Virus record (IMG/VR): IMGVR_UViG_3300013233_000211
Location: 1-54,690 of that record
Length of the DNA stretch: 54,690 nucleotides
Direction: 5' to 3' (one strand)
Origin: a virus
Shown here: positions 2,776 through 54,669 of the stretch, one piece after another
How positions within the stretch are numbered: the stretch's first letter is position 1
Layout of the letters: every line of letters starts with the position of its first letter
The notes under the pieces: generated by a model
What the model was told of the DNA's origin: nothing
What the model saw: only the letters and a program-made list of their open reading frames with translations
Database searches by the model: none
Made by a program: the position numbers and the translations under genes

Positions 2776-2783
2776 TATAAATA
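2776..2783 (+). promoter_or_regulatory. T4-like late promoter box before the desaturases
   Basis: The octamer TATAAATA is identical to the T4 late promoter consensus. It stands 22 bases before the desaturase start at 2806. Transcription would start near 2789, giving the desaturase block its own late promoter separate from nrd read-through. It is immediately followed by an inverted repeat (separate entry). Confidence 0.6.
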
Positions 2784-2805
2784 CTGCTTAACATCGGAGC
2801 AGTAT
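2781..2805 (+). promoter_or_regulatory. Inverted repeat that could mask the desaturase RBS
   Basis: The arms ATACTGCT (2781-2788) and AGCAGTAT (2798-2805) are perfectly complementary, with a nine-base loop. The Shine-Dalgarno GGAG (2796-2799) lies at the edge of the 3' arm and the ATG follows at 2806. RNA reading through from nrdB would contain both arms; RNA started at the late box would lack most of the 5' arm. This matches the way T4 blocks early translation of genes e and soc. Confidence 0.55.
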
Positions 2806-3660
2806 ATGAAATTCAGAAATCCATTAAGTAATGACCACCAGGTTAAAGTACTAAACGCACTAGTATATGTAGTAGCGATATCGACGTTAGTTTTTTCATT
2901 TAGCTGGGTATTGTTATGTTTAGCGTTATCGAGCGGCTGGATGCTATACTTATCAGGTTTTCACGGTAGTTTGCACATGTATTCAAGTCACCGCGCATTT
3001 CTCCCACGAAATATATTCTTTAAGTATCTTATATTATTTGCCGGAACGATGACAGGTGTAGGATCAAACATAATGTGGGCAGCCACACATCGCAAGCATC
3101 ATAAATTTAGTGACAAACCCGGTGACCCACATAGCCCAGTAGAGCCAGCAGAAGGAAAGGTTGGATGGTTACATAATTTTAAATTGTGGTTTTATTATTT
3201 CCCAACATATCATATTAACGTGCGTACAGTAAAAGACCTTACAGTAGATAAAGAGCACAAGTTATTTCACAAGCATTATTTTAAAATTCACATAGCGTTT
3301 GTTGTGTTATTAGCATTAATTGATCCAATATACATAGGATACTTCTGGGCAATTCCTATATTATACGGGTATACGGGTACTAATTATATTGTAGTGACTT
3401 GTCACTTACCATGGTGGAAAGAACGCATCGGATATACAAATTTTAAAGACCAAGTCGACAATAGTTACAATAACAAGCTGATGGCAATATTACTACCAGG
3501 CGAAGGCAATCACGAAAATCATCATGTTAACCCAGGCGCTATACGAAATGCGTTATCCACGCGCGACATTGATTTAGGGTGGTGGTGGATTAATATAGTT
3601 GCTCTGCCAGATTCGCTAGATACATCGGAATCTACGTGGAAACAGGAATACAAGACGTAA
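2806..3660 (+). CDS. Membrane fatty acid desaturase, copy 1
   Basis: A 284-residue integral membrane di-iron enzyme that would introduce a double bond into an acyl chain (acyl-CoA, acyl-ACP or acyl-lipid). The three histidine boxes are intact: H57xxxxH62 (HMYSSH), H95RKHH99 and H236ENHH240 in PGEGNHENHH. Hydrophobic stretches flank them at about 20-50, 70-90 and 162-195, as in the delta-9/SCD-like family, though the protein is shorter than most bacterial members. It is the first of three tandem paralogues and is closest to copy 3 (shared HMYS-H, HR-HHKF-D and MPGEGNH or LPGEGNH phrases). Desaturases have been reported in cyanophages. The substrate here is unknown. Confidence 0.9.
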   Translation: MKFRNPLSNDHQVKVLNALVYVVAISTLVFSFSWVLLCLALSSGWMLYLSGFHGSLHMYSSHRAFLPRNIFFKYLILFAGTMTGVGSNIMWAATHRKHHKFSDKPGDPHSPVEPAEGKVGWLHNFKLWFYYFPTYHINVRTVKDLTVDKEHKLFHKHYFKIHIAFVVLLALIDPIYIGYFWAIPILYGYTGTNYIVVTCHLPWWKERIGYTNFKDQVDNSYNNKLMAILLPGEGNHENHHVNPGAIRNALSTRDIDLGWWWINIVALPDSLDTSESTWKQEYKT

Positions 3661-4464
3661 GTGGCGAAGGCAGCAAAGTACAACAAATACATCAAGTACA
3701 TTAATCTCAATGGATCCAGGATGATAGTTGCGATGAGTTATATTACATCCGCAGCAACGTTGGTATTTTCATTTAATATGATATTTTTAATCACTGCTAT
3801 TGTAATCGGTTGGCTATTTTATGGTATTACTATGATAGTTAATCACCGCTATGCTGCTCACAGTGTATTTAAACCAAAGTCGGCAGTTCACGAATATGTT
3901 ATGTATTTTCTAGCAACATTAGCAGCAAGCGGGTCACCGTTTAGTTGGGCATACGCACACCGTGTGCATCATACTAGCCTAGACACCGGTGCCGACCCGC
4001 AATCGATATACACGGTTGGATTTATCAAGACATGGTTCGCATGGGGTCAAGTTCCAGGTAGATTTCGAGTACGACTAGTTAAGGATTTACTAGCTAATAA
4101 AGGGTTGATGTTATTTCACAAATCTTATCATGCAATGTTAGCTATGTATATGATTGTTTTACTAGCATTATCCCCGACATTATTTGGGTATGTGTTTGGA
4201 ATTAGTGTTACGATATCTTACATATTACTAGGGATACTAAATACAGCCGGTCATGCGTTTAATGGGCCAGGCCAAGTTAATAATTTAAAAATACCATTTA
4301 TCTTTTTTGGCGAAGAACAGCATGCCCGTCATCACAATAATTACACTATGTACTACAGTAATAATAAATATGATATAGCAGGGTATATAATTAAATACAT
4401 GTTAGCGAATAAAACATCATTGCTTGAGAGGCCACATGAAACTAAAATATCAAACTCAAATTAA
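3661..4464 (+). CDS. Membrane fatty acid desaturase, copy 2 (divergent)
   Basis: A 267-residue desaturase with a GTG start directly after the stop of copy 1. The histidine boxes are H62RYAAH67, H100RVHH104 and H221ARHH225 in GEEQHARHHNN, with hydrophobic segments at about 22-60 and 157-197. It differs from copies 1 and 3 in having NHRYAAH rather than HMYS-H, and GEEQHARHH rather than GEGNH-NHH. It probably acts on a different substrate or bond position. The third-box phrase is closer to bacterial acyl-CoA/acyl-lipid delta-9 enzymes. Its 3' end overlaps copy 3 by 29 bases. The regiospecificity cannot be read from sequence. Confidence 0.88.
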   Translation: MAKAAKYNKYIKYINLNGSRMIVAMSYITSAATLVFSFNMIFLITAIVIGWLFYGITMIVNHRYAAHSVFKPKSAVHEYVMYFLATLAASGSPFSWAYAHRVHHTSLDTGADPQSIYTVGFIKTWFAWGQVPGRFRVRLVKDLLANKGLMLFHKSYHAMLAMYMIVLLALSPTLFGYVFGISVTISYILLGILNTAGHAFNGPGQVNNLKIPFIFFGEEQHARHHNNYTMYYSNNKYDIAGYIIKYMLANKTSLLERPHETKISNSN

Positions 4465-5251
4465 TTTGCTTTATATTACAGTATACTTATCTAGTCTGCT
4501 AACATTATATTTTTACTGGGATCTAACATATTTTTTATTTTCAGTAGCCGGCGGTTGGCTATTAGCAGCGTGCGGAATGCACGGAAGTGTCCACATGTAT
4601 TCAGCACATAGATCGTTCGAACCACGTAATAAAATAGTCAAGCATGCTCTATTATTAATAGGTACTCTAGCTGGAATCGGATCCGGCATTAGTGTTGCTA
4701 TATTGCATAGAACACATCATAAATTTGCCGATACAAGTAAAGATTCGCATTCACCGTATTACCCGACAAAAAGCTGGGCCAATTCTTTAAGAGTTTGGTT
4801 TCAGCAATTTATTAATTTCACCCCTAACTATAAGCTAGTAATTGATTTAATGCGCGACCCAGACCACGTATTTTGGCACAAAATATTCTTTAAAGTACAC
4901 CTATTGTTATTTATATTACTACTAGTAATTGATCCTAAATTAGTGGGTTATGTTTGGGCAATCCCTATATTATATACATACCAAGTAGTAGGTTACTTAG
5001 GTGTTGGTTTGCACACTACTTGGGGCAGAAACATTTTAGGTTCTGCCCCGTATAATGTTAATGATATGAGTAGTAATCAGTTTATCGCAAGTATATGGAT
5101 GCCAGGCGAAGGTAATCACAATAATCATCATGAACATCCAGCTAGTGCTAAAAATAGTGAACGATGGCACGAAATCGATCTTGCATACTGGTTTATAAAA
5201 TTAGTAGGCAAGGATATCCACATAGACAAGGAAACACACGAAAACACATGA
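4436..5251 (+). CDS. Membrane fatty acid desaturase, copy 3
   Basis: A 271-residue protein. The ATG at 4436 is chosen because GAGAGG lies just upstream; a TTG twelve bases earlier is less likely. Histidine boxes are H53MYSAH58, H91RTHH95 and H228NNHH232 in MPGEGNHNNHH. It is a clear paralogue of copy 1 with the same box spacing. The start lies inside the end of copy 2 and the stop overlaps the dioxygenase start (ATGA), so the three desaturases and the dioxygenase should be made from one mRNA. All catalytic histidines are kept in each copy, which argues against decay after duplication. Confidence 0.9.
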   Translation: MKLKYQTQINLLYITVYLSSLLTLYFYWDLTYFLFSVAGGWLLAACGMHGSVHMYSAHRSFEPRNKIVKHALLLIGTLAGIGSGISVAILHRTHHKFADTSKDSHSPYYPTKSWANSLRVWFQQFINFTPNYKLVIDLMRDPDHVFWHKIFFKVHLLLFILLLVIDPKLVGYVWAIPILYTYQVVGYLGVGLHTTWGRNILGSAPYNVNDMSSNQFIASIWMPGEGNHNNHHEHPASAKNSERWHEIDLAYWFIKLVGKDIHIDKETHENT

Positions 5252-6300
5252 AAACACGACCACTTAAAAATTATAAAGGTAGTATAGGCTGCGAAGTATA
5301 CGACATTGATCTAGCAACAGCTAACCAAGACGAAATAATGGAACTAGGTAAACTAGTTGAAGATCAATGCAATGTCTTTATTAATCAAAAAGTAACCCCG
5401 CGCCGCCACTACGAAATACAAACTAGTTGGGGGCAGCCATCCCGGGCATTGTTGCATAACTATGTAGTTGATAAAAGAGTCAAAGGAACACATTGGCGTA
5501 ATTTGTTAGCTAATCTAGGATATGTAGCACGCGAAATTCACAACACTGATACTGACTTAGATATGTCTCCGGGCATGTCACAAGTTAGTTTCCGCAAAGA
5601 CGCAAAGGGCAGACCAACTGGAATATTCGCTAACGGCACACTAAATTGGCACAGCGATCAATGCGCATTAGACGAAGCTCCGCGATTAAACGGCTTATCT
5701 AGTTTGCACGACAGTGCTGGTAGCAGAACAGACTTTTTACAAACACATGATGCATTTATGGAATTGTCAAGTGACATGCAAAGTATGATAAAAGAACTTA
5801 AAGTAAAGCATACTTGGCGGCCAATGGGCATTGCTAAAGATTTAAGTGATGCGCAGCAAGAACTTACACGCTACAATATGGTATCACTTGACGGTCAGGA
5901 AACACCATTGTATAGCGAAACAGCAAGCGGTCGTCCTGGTATTAAATTCCCTAGTTATACGTTCAATGGATTTGTTGGCATGTCAGACGCAGAGAGTTGG
6001 AAGATACATAGTATGCTGTCTCAGGCAATATACAACCCTGATTACATTTATCAACATGATTGGCAAGACGGTCAAGTAATGTACTTTGATCAAAGTATTT
6101 GCTTACACAGACGTCCTACTAATATAGTAGATGGCGATCAAAGAACAATGACCCGGATCGTAACGTTCATGGATAAACTTTATGAGAATGCAGGCCCACG
6201 TGATTATGTTTTATGGAATGGCCAAAAACTAACTCATAATGAGTTTGCAGTATTAGTTGATGCTGATCGTAAAGCCGCATACGAAATATCTAAAAATTAA
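5248..6300 (+). CDS. TauD/TfdA-like 2-oxoglutarate/Fe(II) dioxygenase
   Basis: A 350-residue protein; the ATG at 5248 overlaps the previous stop as ATGA and is preferred to a start inside the desaturase. It would use Fe(II), oxygen and 2-oxoglutarate to hydroxylate an unknown small molecule. The facial triad is visible as H135xD137 (NWHSDQ) and a distal H287 (CLHRRP), followed by R299/R303 in GDQRTMTRIV for 2-oxoglutarate binding. An aromatic and acidic C-terminal tail of about 40 residues follows. Coupling to three desaturases suggests, but does not prove, a lipid or lipid-headgroup substrate. TauD-like proteins occur in several marine T4-like phages. Confidence 0.85.
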   Translation: MKTRPLKNYKGSIGCEVYDIDLATANQDEIMELGKLVEDQCNVFINQKVTPRRHYEIQTSWGQPSRALLHNYVVDKRVKGTHWRNLLANLGYVAREIHNTDTDLDMSPGMSQVSFRKDAKGRPTGIFANGTLNWHSDQCALDEAPRLNGLSSLHDSAGSRTDFLQTHDAFMELSSDMQSMIKELKVKHTWRPMGIAKDLSDAQQELTRYNMVSLDGQETPLYSETASGRPGIKFPSYTFNGFVGMSDAESWKIHSMLSQAIYNPDYIYQHDWQDGQVMYFDQSICLHRRPTNIVDGDQRTMTRIVTFMDKLYENAGPRDYVLWNGQKLTHNEFAVLVDADRKAAYEISKN

Positions 6301-6339
6301 GCAAAATAATAGTACTTAAAGTAATGGATTTTTTTCACA

Positions 6340-6363
6340 TAGGTTTACGGTAATTTAAACCTA
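6340..6363. repeat. Inverted repeat in the 5' region of the adhesin gene
   Basis: TAGGTTTA (6340-6347) and TAAACCTA (6356-6363) are perfect inverted repeats separated by eight bases. No T-run follows on the plus strand, so it is a weak terminator candidate. It could equally be an operator upstream of the adhesin promoter. Confidence 0.4.
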
Positions 6364-6385
6364 GGGTACTAGTACTATCGTACAA

Positions 6386-6414
6386 TAGACAAAACCTCCC
6401 TATAATGTTATACT
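6386..6414 (+). promoter_or_regulatory. Sigma70-like promoter of the adhesin gene
   Basis: TAGACA (6386-6391) and TATACT (6409-6414) are separated by exactly 17 bases. A TATAAT also occurs at 6401-6406 but has no well-spaced -35. The adhesin ATG is 35 bases downstream of the -10, behind the Shine-Dalgarno AGGAG. The gene thus appears to be transcribed separately from the desaturase operon. Confidence 0.6.
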
Positions 6415-6448
6415 TACAATAAGTAATAATACACAGGAGATATTACAA

Positions 6449-9400
6449 ATGACCATTGGCACAATCACAGAATTAACAGGCACCGTTTTAGTCAACGGCA
6501 TCCAAGCAAAAATAGGTGACATCATAAACTTAAATGATGTTGTAACAACGAGTACAGGATCGATTCTAATAGCACTAGACAATGGCGAAAACTTTGTCTT
6601 AGGTCGCAATAGTAGTGCAATAATCGATAGTGAAGTATATACTCCGATTCCGGATGAAGTAGCATCAGAAGCTACGCTGACCCCCGAACAGTTAGAAGCA
6701 GCAGTATTAGCAGGAGCAGATATTACTGACTTATTAAAGAAAACAGCAGCTGGACCAAGTGACAGCGGACCTGAGAGCGAAGGAGGCGGCAACGCAGTAT
6801 TCATAGCGCGCACAGGAACAGCAGTAACACCATCGGCTGGCTTCGAAACAACTGGATTAGCAGCACCAGCAATACAGCAAACAAACGAAGTAGGTCAAGT
6901 CATACCCATTGCCCCTCTAGTAACGCCGCCAAAACCACCAGTAACACAACAACCAGTAATCGTTGTAACAATCGAAACTGATCAACGTATTACAACTAAT
7001 ACAGAAGTAACCGCTAACGTCGGTAATGAATATGAAGTTAATCGTTCTAGTACGGTTACTAGCACTAACGGCACAAATACAGTAACTACCACAACGACTA
7101 CTACCGTAAATTACGACAAAGAAACTGATACAGTAACTACAACAACGACAACAACAGAGAACTTCGCTCGCACAGTAACAACAACCACCTTCCCAGACGG
7201 AACAGTTACCGTAGATACAACACCATATGTTTTAACAGATACAAACACAGTAACTGATACTAGTAGCGATATAACTAATACACCACGAGCAGAAGTACTT
7301 GTTAGTTCAGTAGCAGTACTAACAGAATTTGATACCCGAGTATCTACTGATACTAATGTAACTGTTAGCGCAGGTAATGAATACGAAGTCAATCGTAGTA
7401 CTGCTAATGTAGTAACTAATCCAGATAACGATACAGAAGTAACTACGACTACAACAACTATCAATTATAATCAAGTTACTGATACCACTACGTCAACTAC
7501 TACTACAACTGATAATTATTCACGTACTATAACAACAACTACAGGCACAGATGGTACAGTAACAGTAGATACAAGTCCGTATGTGTTACTTGATACAAAT
7601 ACTGTAACATCGGATGATGTTAGTAGTGTTAGTACACCAAGGCAAGAAGTACTTGTTAGTTCAGTAGCAGTGCTAACCGAGTACGATACTCAAGTATCAA
7701 CTGATACCAATGTAACAGTTAATGCAGGTAATGAATATGAAGTTGATCGCTCAACAAACGATGTAGTAACTAACCCAGATAATGTCACAGAAGTAACTAC
7801 AACTACAACAACGATTAATTATAATCAAGTTACTGATACAGTAACAGCAACAGCAACAACGACTGACAATTATTCACGTACGGTAACAACCACTACAGAT
7901 ACTAGCGGCAATGTAACAGTAGATACAAGTCTGTATGTGTTAATTGATACCAATACAGTAACATCAACGAATGATAACGTAGTTGGCACACCGAGACAAG
8001 AAGTACTCACTAGTACCGTTGAAGTAGTAACCGAGTACGATAGCAGTACTGATACTGTAGTAGACGCTGTAATTAATGCTGGTACTGAGTACGAAGTTGA
8101 TCGCTCAACAAACGATGTAGTAACTAATCCAAATAATGTCACAGAAGTAACTACTAGCACAACAACTATTAATTATAATCAAGTTACTGATACTGTTACT
8201 ACAACTACAACAACTAACAAAGAGTTTGAACGTACAGTAACAACGACAACAGATACTAGTGGTAATGTAACCGTAGTTACTACTCCGTTTATTGAAATTA
8301 ATTCATCTACAGCAGCTAATGCAGTAACTACCTCATCATCGACACCTAGGCAAGAAACATTACAGCAGATAGTAGAAGTAGTACAGGAAACCGATCCACG
8401 AACAGTAGCACTTGATCCAATGGTAAGTGCAGCAGTATATGGCACCGAAGCGTTTGTAAGCACGCACGATTCTGCTACAGTAACAACATACACATATTAT
8501 GATCAAGCAGAAACAGTAGTAAAATCAGCAACAACATCGTACAGTACTACAAATAACTATGAAACACCAGGTACTATTACAACTACAACGCAAGAACGTG
8601 TTGACACTTACTCTCGCACTAGCACAACTACAACAAATATTGACGTTAATGGAAACAGTACCGCAGTTGGCCCAGTTTATACAGTATACGCATTAACAGC
8701 TACAGGCGCAGCATATAACACAGGTACAAGCACAGCAGCAGCAACTCCGCTAACTAGAGTAGAAGTAATTGAGTACAGTGATGTTGATAACTTCCCGTTT
8801 GCTGATGATGATACGTTTACTGTTAATGAAGATGCGGTTATCACTGCCACCTTAGCAACCAACGACACACCCTCGTTAGACGGCAGTAATGTATGGACAA
8901 TGCTAACAGATGTATCGCACGGAGCAGTAATAGTTAACACAGACGGAACATTCACTTATACACCAGATGCTAATTATAATGGTAATGATTCATTCACTTA
9001 CAGGATTACAGATGCCGATGGCGATACTAGCGATGCTGTAGCAACATTTACAGTCACACCGGTTAATGACGTGCCAATTGCGATAGATGACACATACGAT
9101 TATACAGCCGATGCTAGTGGATTAACTGGCGATGTTTCTCTAAACGACAAAGAAATTGGCGATGGAGCCCATACTTATGTAGTCACAACATTACCAGCAC
9201 ACGGTATACTAGATTTCTTAGACGACGGCACATTTCATTACACGCCAGTGGATGGATATATCGGAGAGGACACCTTTGATTATTATATACAAGATGCAGA
9301 TGGCGATAAGGATCCAGCAACAGTAACAATAAACGTAGATCAATTAGTAACAGAGCCACCAGTTGATGAAGATTCATCTATGCTAGTTGACAGCAAACTA

Positions 9401-10063
9401 GATGACGATGATGACTCGGAAATGACAGATGACGATGATGATTCAGAAATGACAGATGATGAAGACGATGACGAAGATGATTCAGAATTAGTAAATGACG
9501 AAGATGACGATGATGACTCGGAAATGTCAGATGAAGAAGATGATGACTCAGAAATGACAGATGAAGACGATGATAACGACCACGAAGATGATAACGACCA
9601 CGAAGATGATTCAGAATTAGTAAATAACGAAGACGATGATTCAGATCATGCTAGCATAATCGAGGGTGATGGCGAAACCATAGACTTATCAAACGCAGCA
9701 GATATATTTGCTGATGTTAAGGGCAATAATACACTAATATTCACTAGCGACGATGTAGGCCAAGTAGATCATATATACGGGTTTGATGCTAATGCCGATC
9801 CAAGCAATAAATCTGATACACTAGATTTAAGCGATATTTTAGCAGATGCCGGTTATACAACAGGTGATAGCATAGATGATTACTTACAAGTAACTCAAGA
9901 TGATAAGTCCGGCGATACTACAGTAGCAGTTGATGTGCACGATGGCAACGGCTATCAGGATTTAGCTGTATTATATGCGGATAGAGGATACGGTAGTTCA
10001 TCCTCCAATGGATTAGACAACACATTAGGAGAAATGGTAGATAACGGTTCTATAATAATTTAG
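6449..10063 (+). CDS. Giant LapA-like secreted adhesin with retention module and type I secretion signal
   Basis: A 1204-residue protein with an architecture familiar from bacterial biofilm adhesins. Residues 1-135 resemble the LapA-type retention module: a FecR-like beta fold (GTVLVNG, GDIINLNDVVTT, FVLGRNSS), then EQLEAAVLAGADIT and a TAAG tetrapeptide at 99-102, which is the kind of site cut by the periplasmic protease LapG, then FIARTG and AGFETTG. Residues 172-690 are Thr-rich repeats of about 117 residues, each with an EYEVNRS or EYEVDRS phrase. Residues about 780-967 hold two cadherin/VCBS-like units (TPDANYNGNDSFTYRITDADGD). About 970-1070 is an Asp/Glu run. The last 130 residues match the type I secretion C-terminal target type (DTLDLSDILADAG, TTVAVDVHDGNGYQDLAVL). 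No transporter is encoded in the window, so host export is implied. Confidence 0.85.
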   Translation: MTIGTITELTGTVLVNGIQAKIGDIINLNDVVTTSTGSILIALDNGENFVLGRNSSAIIDSEVYTPIPDEVASEATLTPEQLEAAVLAGADITDLLKKTAAGPSDSGPESEGGGNAVFIARTGTAVTPSAGFETTGLAAPAIQQTNEVGQVIPIAPLVTPPKPPVTQQPVIVVTIETDQRITTNTEVTANVGNEYEVNRSSTVTSTNGTNTVTTTTTTTVNYDKETDTVTTTTTTTENFARTVTTTTFPDGTVTVDTTPYVLTDTNTVTDTSSDITNTPRAEVLVSSVAVLTEFDTRVSTDTNVTVSAGNEYEVNRSTANVVTNPDNDTEVTTTTTTINYNQVTDTTTSTTTTTDNYSRTITTTTGTDGTVTVDTSPYVLLDTNTVTSDDVSSVSTPRQEVLVSSVAVLTEYDTQVSTDTNVTVNAGNEYEVDRSTNDVVTNPDNVTEVTTTTTTINYNQVTDTVTATATTTDNYSRTVTTTTDTSGNVTVDTSLYVLIDTNTVTSTNDNVVGTPRQEVLTSTVEVVTEYDSSTDTVVDAVINAGTEYEVDRSTNDVVTNPNNVTEVTTSTTTINYNQVTDTVTTTTTTNKEFERTVTTTTDTSGNVTVVTTPFIEINSSTAANAVTTSSSTPRQETLQQIVEVVQETDPRTVALDPMVSAAVYGTEAFVSTHDSATVTTYTYYDQAETVVKSATTSYSTTNNYETPGTITTTTQERVDTYSRTSTTTTNIDVNGNSTAVGPVYTVYALTATGAAYNTGTSTAAATPLTRVEVIEYSDVDNFPFADDDTFTVNEDAVITATLATNDTPSLDGSNVWTMLTDVSHGAVIVNTDGTFTYTPDANYNGNDSFTYRITDADGDTSDAVATFTVTPVNDVPIAIDDTYDYTADASGLTGDVSLNDKEIGDGAHTYVVTTLPAHGILDFLDDGTFHYTPVDGYIGEDTFDYYIQDADGDKDPATVTINVDQLVTEPPVDEDSSMLVDSKLDDDDDSEMTDDDDDSEMTDDEDDDEDDSELVNDEDDDDDSEMSDEEDDDSEMTDEDDDNDHEDDNDHEDDSELVNNEDDDSDHASIIEGDGETIDLSNAADIFADVKGNNTLIFTSDDVGQVDHIYGFDANADPSNKSDTLDLSDILADAGYTTGDSIDDYLQVTQDDKSGDTTVAVDVHDGNGYQDLAVLYADRGYGSSSSNGLDNTLGEMVDNGSIII
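6990..8400 (+). repeat. Tandem ~350 bp repeats inside the adhesin gene
   Basis: The coding sequence contains about four degenerate copies of a roughly 350-base unit. Successive copies share the stretch coding for GNEYEV(N/D)RS, followed by polythreonine (up to seven Thr in a row), INYNQVTD and PYVL-DTNTVT. Polythreonine is coded by mixed ACN codons. Such arrays tend to change copy number by recombination and to complicate assembly. Confidence 0.8.
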
Positions 10064-10096
10064 CACCAGATTACTCAAAGTACTCAAAGTACTAGG

Positions 10097-10139
10097 AAGC
10101 GCCTTGATAATATGTTACACTACAACAAGGTGCTTTTTT
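10097..10139 (+). terminator. Rho-independent terminator after the adhesin
   Basis: The stem AAGCGCCTTG (10097-10106) pairs with CAAGGTGCTT (10126-10135) with one G-T pair, followed by a run of six T. The loop of 19 bases is long but the T-run is clear. It closes the adhesin unit. Confidence 0.75.
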
Positions 10140-10171
10140 ATGGCCTATTAGAAATTAGGATAATTAATAAT

Positions 10172-10426
10172 ATGATAACAATATACAGTAAAACAAATTG
10201 CCCAAATTGCGTACAAGCAGGGCAGCTATTGACTATGTTTAAAATTGAGCACAATGTAGTTAAAATTGATGAAGATACCACAGCAGAAGAATTTGTTGTA
10301 AGTAATGGCCACAGAAGCGTACCGCAGTTATATATAAACGATACGTTATTTGTAGAAGGTGGTCTAGATGGATTAATGACAATGTCTAAAGAGGACATTA
10401 CCAAAAGAGTCGAGGATTTATCATGA
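10172..10426 (+). CDS. Glutaredoxin
   Basis: An 84-residue thiol-disulfide oxidoreductase. The ATG at 10172 gives the family start MITIYSKTNCPNC; an upstream in-frame ATG at 10112 lies inside the terminator hairpin and is rejected. The active site is C10-P-N-C13, and the later HRSVPQLYIND carries the cis-proline and the GG phrase follows in EGGLDGL, as in classical glutaredoxins. It would reduce NrdA's C-terminal cysteines using glutathione. The stop overlaps the next start (ATGA). Confidence 0.93.
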   Translation: MITIYSKTNCPNCVQAGQLLTMFKIEHNVVKIDEDTTAEEFVVSNGHRSVPQLYINDTLFVEGGLDGLMTMSKEDITKRVEDLS

Positions 10427-12707: not shown

Positions 12708-12736
12708 TTGACAACAGCACTATATTCCTGTATAAT
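12708..12736 (+). promoter_or_regulatory. Perfect consensus sigma70 promoter of the ligase gene
   Basis: TTGACA (12708-12713) and TATAAT (12731-12736) match the consensus at all twelve positions with a 17-base spacer. It should be read by the unmodified host polymerase, which would make ligase an early gene. Expected start near 12743. Confidence 0.9.
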
Positions 12737-41899: not shown

Positions 41900-44419
41900 A
41901 TGTCTCAGCAGCCAGTATGGGATACAGCCCCTGGATCACTAGGAACAGTGCCAGAAGGCAAATTCTATAGAATAGCAGTTAATGCTTATGATCCAGAATT
42001 CATCAATGACCCAACAGTAATATCATATTCGTTATTGTCCGGTTCATTGCCTTCTGGCATCCAAGTACAACGCAATGGTACTATAGAAGGTATTCCAGTA
42101 TCCATTGCGGATGTTAAAGGTGTTCCGACAGAAGTAGCTGAGAACACTAAGTCTAAATTCACAATCCGCGCCACATCTGCAGCAAATAGAATCAACGACC
42201 GTACATTCACGTTAACTATAACTGGACAAGATACGCCAGTGTTTATTACTAATGCTGGTAGTATAGGGATATACGAAGATGGCGACCCTGTAGATTTTCA
42301 ATTTGAATACAAGGATAATGATCCTGGTGATGTAGTTACTATAAAACTATTATCTGGTGAATTACCTAGTGGGTTAACATTAACCGAGACTGGGTTATTA
42401 ACGGGTTTCGTAGAGCCATTTCCGGACACTAACTTCGGATTTGATTTACCGCAGTTATTTGACGAATTTGGTGATCCTATATTAACACGTACATTTGACA
42501 ATGAATTTGATTTCTACGATGAAGTTCCGTGGGAGTTTTTGCCAGGTTCACTTAGTAAAGATTATCTGTTTACATTAGAAATAACCGATGGTAAGAATAT
42601 CAATACTAGAAACTTCTCAATGTTCGTACAAAGTCAAGCAGAACCCAAACCGTTTATACGAAACTATGTTAGGAACTTAGGTACCGTAAGGCATGATAAT
42701 TTCTACACACATAAAATAGAAGGTGATGATGTAATTGGATTTAATGTTATGTACCGATTACTTACTCCGTTACCTGAACTGAATTTAACACTAGATACTA
42801 ATACTGGATGGTTAACCGGCTATCTGCCTGATATTAACTTGAGAGTAGAAACATACACGTTCAATGTAGAAGTATATGTTATAAATAGCTCCGGACTTGA
42901 AATTACTTCTAATGTATACAAGTACGATCTAACTATTAGTGGAGATATTGAAGCTAGTGTATTTTGGTCATCAGATTCAGATCTAGGAGCAATAATAAAC
43001 GGGCAAGAAAGTACGTTATTTGTCGAAGCACTGCACGAGACATTACCGCTAGAGTATCAACAAGTAGCTGGTAATTTGCCAGCAGGTGTAGAATTATTAT
43101 CATCGGGAATATTAGCTGGTAGAGTAGATTTTGAAACGTTTAATCTTGACAGCGGAAGAACAACGTTCGACGCAGAATTTAGCACACGATTATCTAATGC
43201 GGATCCACTAACATTTGATTTAGTATACACGTTTACTGCGAATGCATACTCAAGCGATAAAACCGTATCCATATTTAAGGAATTTATCGTATCAATTGAC
43301 AAGCAGTTTAACACACCGTTTAATTCGATATATGCCAAGGCGCTATTAAATACGCATGACAGGGATGCGATATCATCAATGTTATCTACTATAGATTTTA
43401 ATTTACTATATAGACTCGGTGACGAGAACTTCGCAGCAGCTAAAAACTTAACATACACACATGCTTACGGGTTAACGCCGGCTAACATAGAAGATTATTA
43501 CTTAGCTACTAAATTAAATCATTATAATAAACAGTTAGTCTTAGGTGAATTAAAAACCGCAAGGGCGTTAGATGAAAATGGATTAGTTCAATATGAAGTA
43601 GTATATAGCCAAATTATCGACAATTTAGTTAACCCCAATAGTGAAAGTGTATCGTCTAAAGTAGATACATTCACTGGCATTATAAACGATGGAAGTGGAA
43701 AAAGTGTAACAGTTCTTGATGATTTTGTATATCCTAATAGTTTAAAGAATATGCGAGATAATATAATAGACACCATTGGGCAAGAATCTAAACTATTGCC
43801 GCGCTGGATGTTAAGCAAGCAAGAAAATGGAAATATATTAGGTTTCACGCCAGCATGGGTAATCGCTTACACAAAGCCCGGGCAATCAAAATTATTATCA
43901 TATCAGCTTACTAATGATTATTTAAACTTAAATCAAATTGACTTCACTGTAGATCGATTTACATTAGAAAATAGATACACACATAACTGGGATATAGTAT
44001 ATACTGCCGATAGTACAAGATCAGCACCATGGACAGGGTTAAAGACAAGTGATGGAGCAGATGGCTGGCACAAAGCAGAAATAACGTGCGACTCTAGTAT
44101 AATATACACTGATGCTACTAACACAGCAGATTCGTATGAAGACCTAGGGTTGAGTTTGTTTACAGTAGACAATGCGTTCTTCACAGCAGATTCTAATTTA
44201 ACAGCAGATTCAGTAACAACAGAAATAACGTTTATATCAGTAGACAAGGACGGTGCGTTAGTTCCGCTAGAGCAAGGAAGAACAGGTTACGACAATGCGT
44301 TGTATGATTCACTAGCATATGACGAAACATTGACGGTATTAGTACTAAACGCTAATACTAAAACCCAGGATAGATTTGACAAATACATTAAATTTCCACA
44401 AACGAATATCGTGAAATAA
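41900..44419 (+). CDS. Large tail protein with repeated Ig-like (He_PIG) domains
   Basis: An 839-residue virion protein. At least three units of the putative-Ig type are visible, each with PEGKFYR..., a YSLLSGSLPSGIQVQRNGTI or LLSGELPSGLTLTETGLLTG phrase, and about 85-100 residues. The C-terminal 350 residues are mixed alpha/beta with no motif. Such proteins form long tail or baseplate appendages. It follows the previous gene with no separate promoter seen. Its exact position in the virion is unknown. Confidence 0.7.
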   Translation: MSQQPVWDTAPGSLGTVPEGKFYRIAVNAYDPEFINDPTVISYSLLSGSLPSGIQVQRNGTIEGIPVSIADVKGVPTEVAENTKSKFTIRATSAANRINDRTFTLTITGQDTPVFITNAGSIGIYEDGDPVDFQFEYKDNDPGDVVTIKLLSGELPSGLTLTETGLLTGFVEPFPDTNFGFDLPQLFDEFGDPILTRTFDNEFDFYDEVPWEFLPGSLSKDYLFTLEITDGKNINTRNFSMFVQSQAEPKPFIRNYVRNLGTVRHDNFYTHKIEGDDVIGFNVMYRLLTPLPELNLTLDTNTGWLTGYLPDINLRVETYTFNVEVYVINSSGLEITSNVYKYDLTISGDIEASVFWSSDSDLGAIINGQESTLFVEALHETLPLEYQQVAGNLPAGVELLSSGILAGRVDFETFNLDSGRTTFDAEFSTRLSNADPLTFDLVYTFTANAYSSDKTVSIFKEFIVSIDKQFNTPFNSIYAKALLNTHDRDAISSMLSTIDFNLLYRLGDENFAAAKNLTYTHAYGLTPANIEDYYLATKLNHYNKQLVLGELKTARALDENGLVQYEVVYSQIIDNLVNPNSESVSSKVDTFTGIINDGSGKSVTVLDDFVYPNSLKNMRDNIIDTIGQESKLLPRWMLSKQENGNILGFTPAWVIAYTKPGQSKLLSYQLTNDYLNLNQIDFTVDRFTLENRYTHNWDIVYTADSTRSAPWTGLKTSDGADGWHKAEITCDSSIIYTDATNTADSYEDLGLSLFTVDNAFFTADSNLTADSVTTEITFISVDKDGALVPLEQGRTGYDNALYDSLAYDETLTVLVLNANTKTQDRFDKYIKFPQTNIVK

Positions 44420-53103: not shown

Positions 53104-54669
53104 ATGATTGAATATTTTTTAGCACTAGTAATAGGTACAGTATACGGACTGATTGTTGGTGTAATACCTGCAGCTGGCGCGACAACAGGATTAGTAGCTC
53201 TTTTCCCGGCCGTTGTTATGTTACAAGCAGTAGACCCGTATCTTGCAGTAGTGTTCATTATGGCAGTCGTTGCGGCTAGTACAACCGGGGATACATTCGC
53301 TAGCATATTATTAGGAATACCAGGAGCTAATAGTTCGGCTGCTACAATGGTTGACGGTTTTCCGCTAGCACAACAAGGCAAAGCAAGTTATGCATTATCA
53401 GCAGCGATCACCACTAGTACAGTAAACGGGTTATTATATGGTGCCGCCACATTCTTATTATTACCGTACTACAAAGACTTTTTATTATTACCGGCAACGC
53501 AAGGCGGAGTAGGACAAGCAGAGTTATTTGCGTTCTGCATAATGGCATTTATTACAGTGAGTTTTATATCTAATAGTTATTGGTTCCGATCTATTGTAGC
53601 ATTATCACTGGGTATATTTTTTAGTTTAGTAGGAACAGATCCTATTACTGCAGCACCACGCTTTACACTAGGCTGGGATTTCTTAGAAGATGGGATATCA
53701 ATGATCCCAATGATGGCAGGCTTATTTGCTATGCCTGAGATGCTTCTTGCATTTAAATCACAATCACTGTTAACAGATAAAACATACAATGTTGATGACA
53801 GAAAACAAATCATCGACGGAATTAAGATATCGTTTAAAGAATGGAAATTATCGTTAAAAGGTGGACTAATAGGAAGTGTAGTAGGATTCTTACCGGGCAT
53901 AGGTGGTGGTGTAAGTGATTGGTTATCGTACGGAGCTACAGTAGCAAGCAATCCTAAGGAAACATTTGGTAACGGTAACATCAAAGGTGTTATCGGGCCA
54001 GAAGGAAGTAACAACGCACAAAAAGCAACTAGTATGATACCTACTGTGCTGTTTGGCATTCCAGGGGCAGCATTTGCTGCTATTATTATAGGATTATTTG
54101 GGACAATCGGATTTGACTTATCGCTAGACAGTGCCAATGTAATTAAAGATCCAAAGTTCTTTAACGCAATGAGTCTTGGGTTTTTAGCAGCAACATTATT
54201 AACAGGGATTATATGTATATTTGCGATAAAGCCTATTTCTAGGATTGCGTATATACCGTATAAGTATTATTTCCCAGTATTGTTAGCCTTAATAGTTTGG
54301 GCAACTTATACTGCAGGTTTCTCGACTTATGGCGTAGAAAATGTTATACTACTTGTAGTATTTACTTTAGTAGGAATAGCATTAAAGAAATACCACTTTA
54401 GCAGACCAGCTTTAATGATTGGTTTTATGCTAGGTGACAAGATTGAAGAACTTGCCACGCAAACGTTACAGATATTTAACGTAGGTGGCTACCCTTTAAT
54501 AAAGCTAAAGGAAATCTTTGGTTATCATGTTGGGCAAGGTCAAATTGATCTTGCGTTAGACCCAAGTAAAAACTTACTAAGTCATCCGACATTCGTTGGC
54601 ATTTGTTTAATAATAGTCTTGGTATTATACTGGGGTTATAAAAACAAAAGTAAAATTAATTACTCGTAG
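53104..54669 (+). CDS. tctA: TctA-family tripartite tricarboxylate transporter permease
   Basis: A 521-residue membrane protein of the TctA type (large permease of the TTT family), with about 11-12 spans. The inverted-repeat signatures are both present: GLIVGVIPAAGATTGLVALF, TFASILLGIPGANSSAATMV in the first half, and VGFLPGIGGGVSDWLSYG and VLFGIPGAAFAAIIIG in the second. It is close to full length. In bacteria it works with TctB and the periplasmic binder TctC to import carboxylates. Transporter permeases of this size are very rare in phages. A further gene starts at 54678. Confidence 0.88.
   Translation: MIEYFLALVIGTVYGLIVGVIPAAGATTGLVALFPAVVMLQAVDPYLAVVFIMAVVAASTTGDTFASILLGIPGANSSAATMVDGFPLAQQGKASYALSAAITTSTVNGLLYGAATFLLLPYYKDFLLLPATQGGVGQAELFAFCIMAFITVSFISNSYWFRSIVALSLGIFFSLVGTDPITAAPRFTLGWDFLEDGISMIPMMAGLFAMPEMLLAFKSQSLLTDKTYNVDDRKQIIDGIKISFKEWKLSLKGGLIGSVVGFLPGIGGGVSDWLSYGATVASNPKETFGNGNIKGVIGPEGSNNAQKATSMIPTVLFGIPGAAFAAIIIGLFGTIGFDLSLDSANVIKDPKFFNAMSLGFLAATLLTGIICIFAIKPISRIAYIPYKYYFPVLLALIVWATYTAGFSTYGVENVILLVVFTLVGIALKKYHFSRPALMIGFMLGDKIEELATQTLQIFNVGGYPLIKLKEIFGYHVGQGQIDLALDPSKNLLSHPTFVGICLIIVLVLYWGYKNKSKINYS

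Follow-up and report, generated by a model that had tools for sequence, protein, structure and literature searches.

Many Gram-negative bacteria switch between the free-living state and the biofilm by means of adhesins with a retention module. A dedicated type I secretion system (T1SS) exports the LapA-type adhesins, which become anchored by their N-terminal module in the TolC-like LapE (PMC6890996). Cleavage at a di-alanine site by LapG releases the adhesin, LapG itself being restrained by LapD and c-di-GMP (PMC6890996); the anchoring of LapA and its release by LapG have been established in Pseudomonas and Vibrio (PMC6890996, PMC13090378). In the substrates of LapG, the motif [T/A/P]AAG is accompanied by a "DP" turn and a targeting helix (PMC13090378).

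The locus described here resides in a viral stretch of 54,690 nucleotides (hereafter, the window), which is a linear IMG/VR contig and represents a fragment. Its phage genes include those for ribonucleotide reductase, DNA ligase, clamp loader, and head maturation protease along with tail fibres, a tail assembly chaperone, and PAAR. The NrdB of the window is 60–62% identical to its counterparts in phages of the type of Cronobacter GAP32, with genomes of ~350 kb, and two related contigs, 343 and 353 kb in length, share the block NrdA–NrdB–Grx–phrog_527–ligase with the window; hence, the window may be a piece of a far larger genome.

Architecture of the Encoded Protein

The gene and its recognizable parts are as follows:

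6449–10063, plus strand: LapA-like adhesin gene (1204 aa)
6455–6856, plus strand: LapA-type N-terminal retention module, residues 3–136 (NF033682 of NCBIfam)
6743–6754, plus strand: TAAG, the predicted LapG site, residues 99–102 (by alignment with bacterial modules)
6974–8803, plus strand: Thr-rich repeats, four in-register units and a degenerate fifth
8795–9364, plus strand: two tandem-95/Big_9 Ig-like domains, residues 783–972 (NF012211, PF17963)
9374–9664, plus strand: acid-rich segment of the DDDDDSEMTDD type, standing where RTX repeats would be
9767–10060, plus strand: T1SS_VCA0849-type C-terminal secretion domain (TIGR03661 match at 9767–9958)

The chance of a 1204-codon open frame at this composition is about 4e-36. 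The predicted protein is acidic (pI 4.05), rich in threonine (20.5%), and devoid of cysteine; its N-terminus lacks a hydrophobic segment able to serve as a Sec signal, which agrees with T1SS substrates. According to the original prediction, this phage genome encodes a protein of LapA-type architecture, the absence of matches to the retention-module and T1SS models being named there as the contrary outcome. The corresponding search was run and both models matched, the two terminal domains scoring above the curated cut-offs.

The retention module expected at the N-terminus was recovered with the model NF033682 at 63.9 bits in the whole adhesin, at 70.3 bits in its first 159 aa, and at 70 bits in a six-frame scan, the curated cut-off being 50 bits; the match spanned model positions 3–144 of 145. 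A profile built from 30 bacterial retention modules alone, with sequences fetched from genomes, found the adhesin ORF as its sole match among the 401 frames of the window (E 1.3e-21). The AlphaFold2 model of the N-terminus is of low confidence (pLDDT 49); its best PDB match found by Foldseek was 5IX9, a "cell surface anchoring domain" (probability 1.00, TM 0.61 by target length, E 0.006), which was matched by the family sequence profiles as well.

The TAAG announced for residues 99–102 is there, and in the alignment it falls in the column where the bacterial modules have TAAG or PAAG. It is the only instance of [TAP]AA[GV] in the adhesin, and upon shuffling of the N-terminus [TAP]AAG appeared within residues 71–130 in 2.3% of cases. 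The site is preceded by a predicted helix and by "GADITDLLKK" (the low-confidence model places helices at 79–87 and 92–101), so the protein reads "DI" where the LapG substrates usually have "DP" before TAAG; the P is absent from several bacterial modules of the 30-module alignment, too. Given a predicted helix, an I after the D, and the TAAG itself, anchoring is better supported than cleavage.

At the opposite end, the anticipated VCA0849-type secretion domain was evidenced by the match of TIGR03661 to the last 135 aa of the adhesin (39.8 bits) and in the six-frame scan (40.7 bits at 9767–9958), both above the cut-off of 17.6 bits and running over the initial two thirds of the model (positions 1–62 of 91). 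The match was seen only with the C-terminus alone or in the six-frame scan: the NCBIfam scan of the whole adhesin listed no secretion domain, seemingly because the acid-rich stretch upstream masked it. When aligned with adhesins of Panacagrimonas and Pseudomonas, the C-terminus displays the common core "DxLDLSxxL...DdYLxxT...GxTT" and, after a conserved glycine, a hydrophobic end.

Between the terminal domains, the foreseen Thr-rich repeats turned out to be four units of 117–118 aa (residues 176–292, 293–410, 411–528, and 529–646) and a degenerate fifth (residues 647–785). The three best units are 54–78% identical as proteins, 30–42% of the codons for their identical residues differ, and the pairwise dN/dS values (Nei–Gojobori) are 0.15/0.83, 0.43/0.86, and 0.33/0.66; the codon divergence together with dN below dS shows that the repeats are old and have been maintained as protein. 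A structure model of two units was all-beta (pLDDT 64), the fold search with the repeats returned nothing but long-strand matches devoid of meaning (TM up to about 0.2), and no NCBIfam family matched them. The units taken initially for cadherin-like proved to be the two tandem-95/Big_9 Ig-like domains (NF012211 at 106.6 bits with this region scanned alone, PF17963 at 96.9 bits in the whole adhesin). In the acid-rich segment, D and E make up 60% of the residues. No GGxGxD or GxGxDxx was found in the protein (the test for the RTX nonapeptide GGxGxDxUx). Judging by these features, the assignment of the predicted adhesin to the family of retention-module T1SS substrates is strong; strictly speaking, the predicted protein falls outside the RTX adhesins, as it lacks RTX nonapeptides.

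The Gene as Phage Cargo

The surroundings of the gene in the window comprise the following elements:

1657–2775: NrdB, the left border of the cargo slot
2776–10171, plus strand: variable cargo slot between NrdB and glutaredoxin, with conserved flanking order
6386–6414, plus strand: promoter-like site TAGACA-17-TATACT with TG before the second hexamer (10/12 match)
6435–6439, plus strand: good ribosome-binding site AGGAG, 9 bases before the ATG at 6449
10096–10139, plus strand: intrinsic terminator, an 11-bp stem (10096–10106 / 10126–10136) and a T run
10112–10426: glutaredoxin ORF, first ATG at 10112, likelier start at the ATG 10172

Among about 80 viral loci possessing a related NrdB, the majority keep the order NrdA–NrdB–[cargo]–Grx–phrog_527 and vary in the cargo. 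Elsewhere the cargo includes isocitrate lyase, class II aldolase, SAM synthetase, a homing-endonuclease-like protein, and a FabH-like synthase (examples of the gap: L037, 11126–12334; L060, 4543–5202; L067, 2473–3546; L003, 5060–6581). The gap between NrdB and glutaredoxin is a hot spot of exchangeable cargo across a wide phage group. In the window, it harbors the adhesin gene preceded by three consecutive genes for distinct fatty-acid desaturases and then the gene of a TauD-family dioxygenase (2806–5251). In the closest relative, L003, the gene for TauD (72% identical) runs directly into that for glutaredoxin, and the adhesin gene is absent. The retention module was found in none of 57 related viral records; the insertion was seen in one contig only.

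The terminator, which separates the adhesin gene from glutaredoxin, has a folding energy of −14.2 kcal/mol (z −3.8), a stability equalled by none of 200 shuffles. Since the ATG at 10112 falls inside its hairpin, 10172 is the more likely start of glutaredoxin. The promoter-like site ends 35 bases upstream of the adhesin start codon; sites of that quality are no commoner than chance (46 observed vs. 50 expected), so this promoter is suggestive only. Considered together, the terminator and the upstream signals make it probable that the adhesin gene is a transcription unit of its own. A promoter motif common to the adhesin gene and glutaredoxin was also considered and dropped: its frequency does not exceed chance, and the copy near glutaredoxin is the terminator loop. 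A perfect sigma-70 consensus promoter (TTGACA-17-TATAAT) is present at 12708–12736, just upstream of the DNA ligase gene.

The GC3 of the adhesin gene is 0.24 (0.25–0.36 in most of its neighbours), and its codon choices match those of the phage. Together with the empty syntenic site in L003, this phage-like codon usage and GC3 argues against a chimera. It could still be supposed that a bacterial lapA was gained by chance, via transduction or as an assembly artifact joining unrelated sequences, and plays no role in infection. Consistent with this, there is a single contig, and the family is a bacterial one: of 299 Pseudomonadota genomes, 31 contain a retention-module match above the cut-off. 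Apart from the base composition, this explanation is rendered improbable by the phage genes flanking the insertion on both sides, which match the syntenic relative, by the age and preservation of the repeat units, and by the Thr-rich repeats not being found in 398 Pseudomonadota genomes (a search run without a positive control). The phage context is a strong one, as far as one contig goes. As judged from the sequence, the adhesin gene is genuine phage cargo, a "moron": it is an extra gene, equipped with a terminator (and, suggestively, with a promoter-like site) and absent from the same site of the relative.

The rarity of the find was assessed in several collections. Nothing credible was retrieved from 50,697 phage records with the adhesin N-terminus, two bacterial retention modules, or the C-terminus, and the N-terminus was not found in 72,556 plasmids. 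The search of IMG/VR with the full adhesin, its N-terminus, and its C-terminus revealed no relative within its reach, limited to short peptide patterns; hence, rarer or more distant copies may exist. A P. putida LapA N-terminus was used as a search seed only, and the conclusions rest on sequences fetched from genomes. The HCBP-related model PF06594 matched in no genome searched, a result without informative value. Two IMG/VR contigs (L136 and L137) retrieved via the bacterial-module alignment as candidates for phage lapA were rejected: each carries a Pseudomonas-like lapA at the border of a prophage contig named after an isolate genome, and these genes look like host flank. The full-text literature searches also yielded no description of a phage LapA, so the earlier statement that none had been described holds for the libraries and literature searched. 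Within the collections searched, the adhesin is the only phage-borne case of a retention module.

The alternative that the protein is a part of the virion, i.e., a tail fibre or decoration protein which happens to contain bacterial adhesin domains, takes its appeal from phage C48C1, where tandem-95 domains occur in a protein encoded beside baseplate genes, and from the PAAR and phrog_527 genes situated just downstream of the adhesin. The whole adhesin gave one match in the phage records, limited to its tandem-95 part. Such a function is very unlikely: the adhesin is unmatched by any tail or head PHROG, its retention module and T1SS tail are without known use in virions, and the gene, in contrast to essential virion parts, is missing from related phages and occupies a variable slot together with auxiliary metabolic genes.

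Other genes of these contigs deserve mention on their own. In L003, the desaturase/TauD set is retained and supplemented by FabH-like and hexapeptide-transferase genes, as if the phage modified the lipids of its host. A viral contig with a TauD-type gene, L007, also contains a tryptophan-halogenase-like gene (629–2083; read from the sequence). At the right end of the window (53104–54669), directly after a 196-aa ORF, there is a full-length gene for TctA, the large subunit of the tripartite tricarboxylate transporter (PF01970, 305.6 bits), an unusual phage cargo. An 839-aa ORF at 41900–44419 comprises two He_PIG Ig-like stretches and has no PHROG match; possibly, it codes for a surface or virion protein.

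Possible Role during Infection

The LapG family had no match in the window or in 34 related viral records, and no T1SS family was present among the window genes scanned (a part of the ORFs of this fragmentary contig), so the machinery of the host would be needed. Similarly, neither linked LapB/C/E secretion genes nor LapD/LapG were seen beside the adhesin gene in this fragmentary contig. The contention that nothing else in the window could export the protein therefore stands for the window genes scanned, the rest of the genome lying outside the linear fragment. T1SS substrates unlinked from secretion genes are known, e.g., in Legionella (PMC7730722).

With a probability of about 0.62, the gene is a moron encoding an adhesin of the LapA kind that is exported by the host T1SS and displayed, anchored, on the infected cell. 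Its export, display, cleavage, and benefit are what we infer. During infection, the presumed Lap-type T1SS of the host (LapB/C/E-like) would recognize the C-terminus of the adhesin, which would leave the cell C-terminus first; the N-terminal module would fold in the periplasm and jam in the TolC-like pore of the outer membrane, so that the Thr-rich repeats and the Ig-like domains would remain displayed on the cell surface. The infected cell would then stick to an aggregate or biofilm, or be kept within it, up to its lysis or to cleavage at TAAG by LapG, provided that the host possesses this protease. The likely gain would be that the progeny is set free where susceptible hosts are dense.

Should LapG be missing or its cleavage be poor, the adhesin would be anchored permanently, a situation fitting lasting adhesion and pore plugging alike. 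Under the latter explanation, the retained T1SS substrate of a lytic phage would lastingly plug the TolC-like channel by its retention module while the stalk covers the channel and the adhesive repeats coat the cell, with a host protease site permitting release. The outcome would be superinfection exclusion, directed at phages using the channel as a receptor, or a take-over of the surface by blocking the adhesin export of the host itself. TolC-like proteins serve as phage receptors, a lytic phage profits by excluding its competitors, and the adhesin gene ends in a terminator of its own and stands without a partner gene. Plugging, too, is predicted by the anatomy of the adhesin: it is by the retention module that such adhesins are held in the TolC-like LapE pore (PMC6890996). 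Still, the plug is an unlikely function here: nothing links this phage or its competitors to a TolC-like receptor, and the long repeats with the Ig-like domains exceed the needs of a plug.

The display of an anchored adhesin, the preferred reading, would mean that a phage could govern the adhesiveness of its host in the course of infection, tying viral infection to aggregation and biofilm. The adhesin is a phage product apparently built for the T1SS of the host, and this one gene makes the question of whether phages remodel the infected-cell surface through host secretion systems directly testable.

Comparison with Known Systems

Phage morons are cargo genes equipped with a promoter and a terminator of their own. 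The adhesin gene resembles them in being a single gene lodged amid conserved genes of the phage and missing from the relatives; it has a terminator and a promoter-like site. The surface-acting morons known so far encode mostly small proteins of the membrane or proteins that modify LPS; no other moron of the LapA kind was found among the phage collections searched.

Of the individual proteins, 5IX9, the retention domain from the ice-binding adhesin of Marinomonas primoryensis, corresponds by profile and fold to the N-terminal module of the phage protein (about 32% identity, 75 columns), with the match restricted to this module and the other parts of the phage adhesin unmatched. The best bacterial match to the retention module (38% identity) is a 2503-aa protein of the genome G366 (L149, 6122–13633). 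Its C-terminus is similar to that of the phage adhesin, and it also has VCBS-like repeats, as read from the sequence; unlike the phage adhesin, it possesses RTX repeats and a duplicated N-terminal module and lacks the Thr-rich repeats. A VCA0849-type C-terminus, as in the phage adhesin, occurs in the bacterial protein of L092, VCA0849 being CraA.

In comparison with the class NF033682, i.e., LapA/MapA of Pseudomonas and CraA/FrhA of Vibrio cholerae, the phage adhesin is short (1204 aa vs. the several thousand residues usual for the class), contains an acid segment instead of the RTX nonapeptides, and reads "DI" rather than "DP"; it is carried by a phage, with no lapBCEDG genes seen alongside. 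At the same time, it shares with this class a like retention module with TAAG in the same column, a repetitive stalk, and Ig-like domains.
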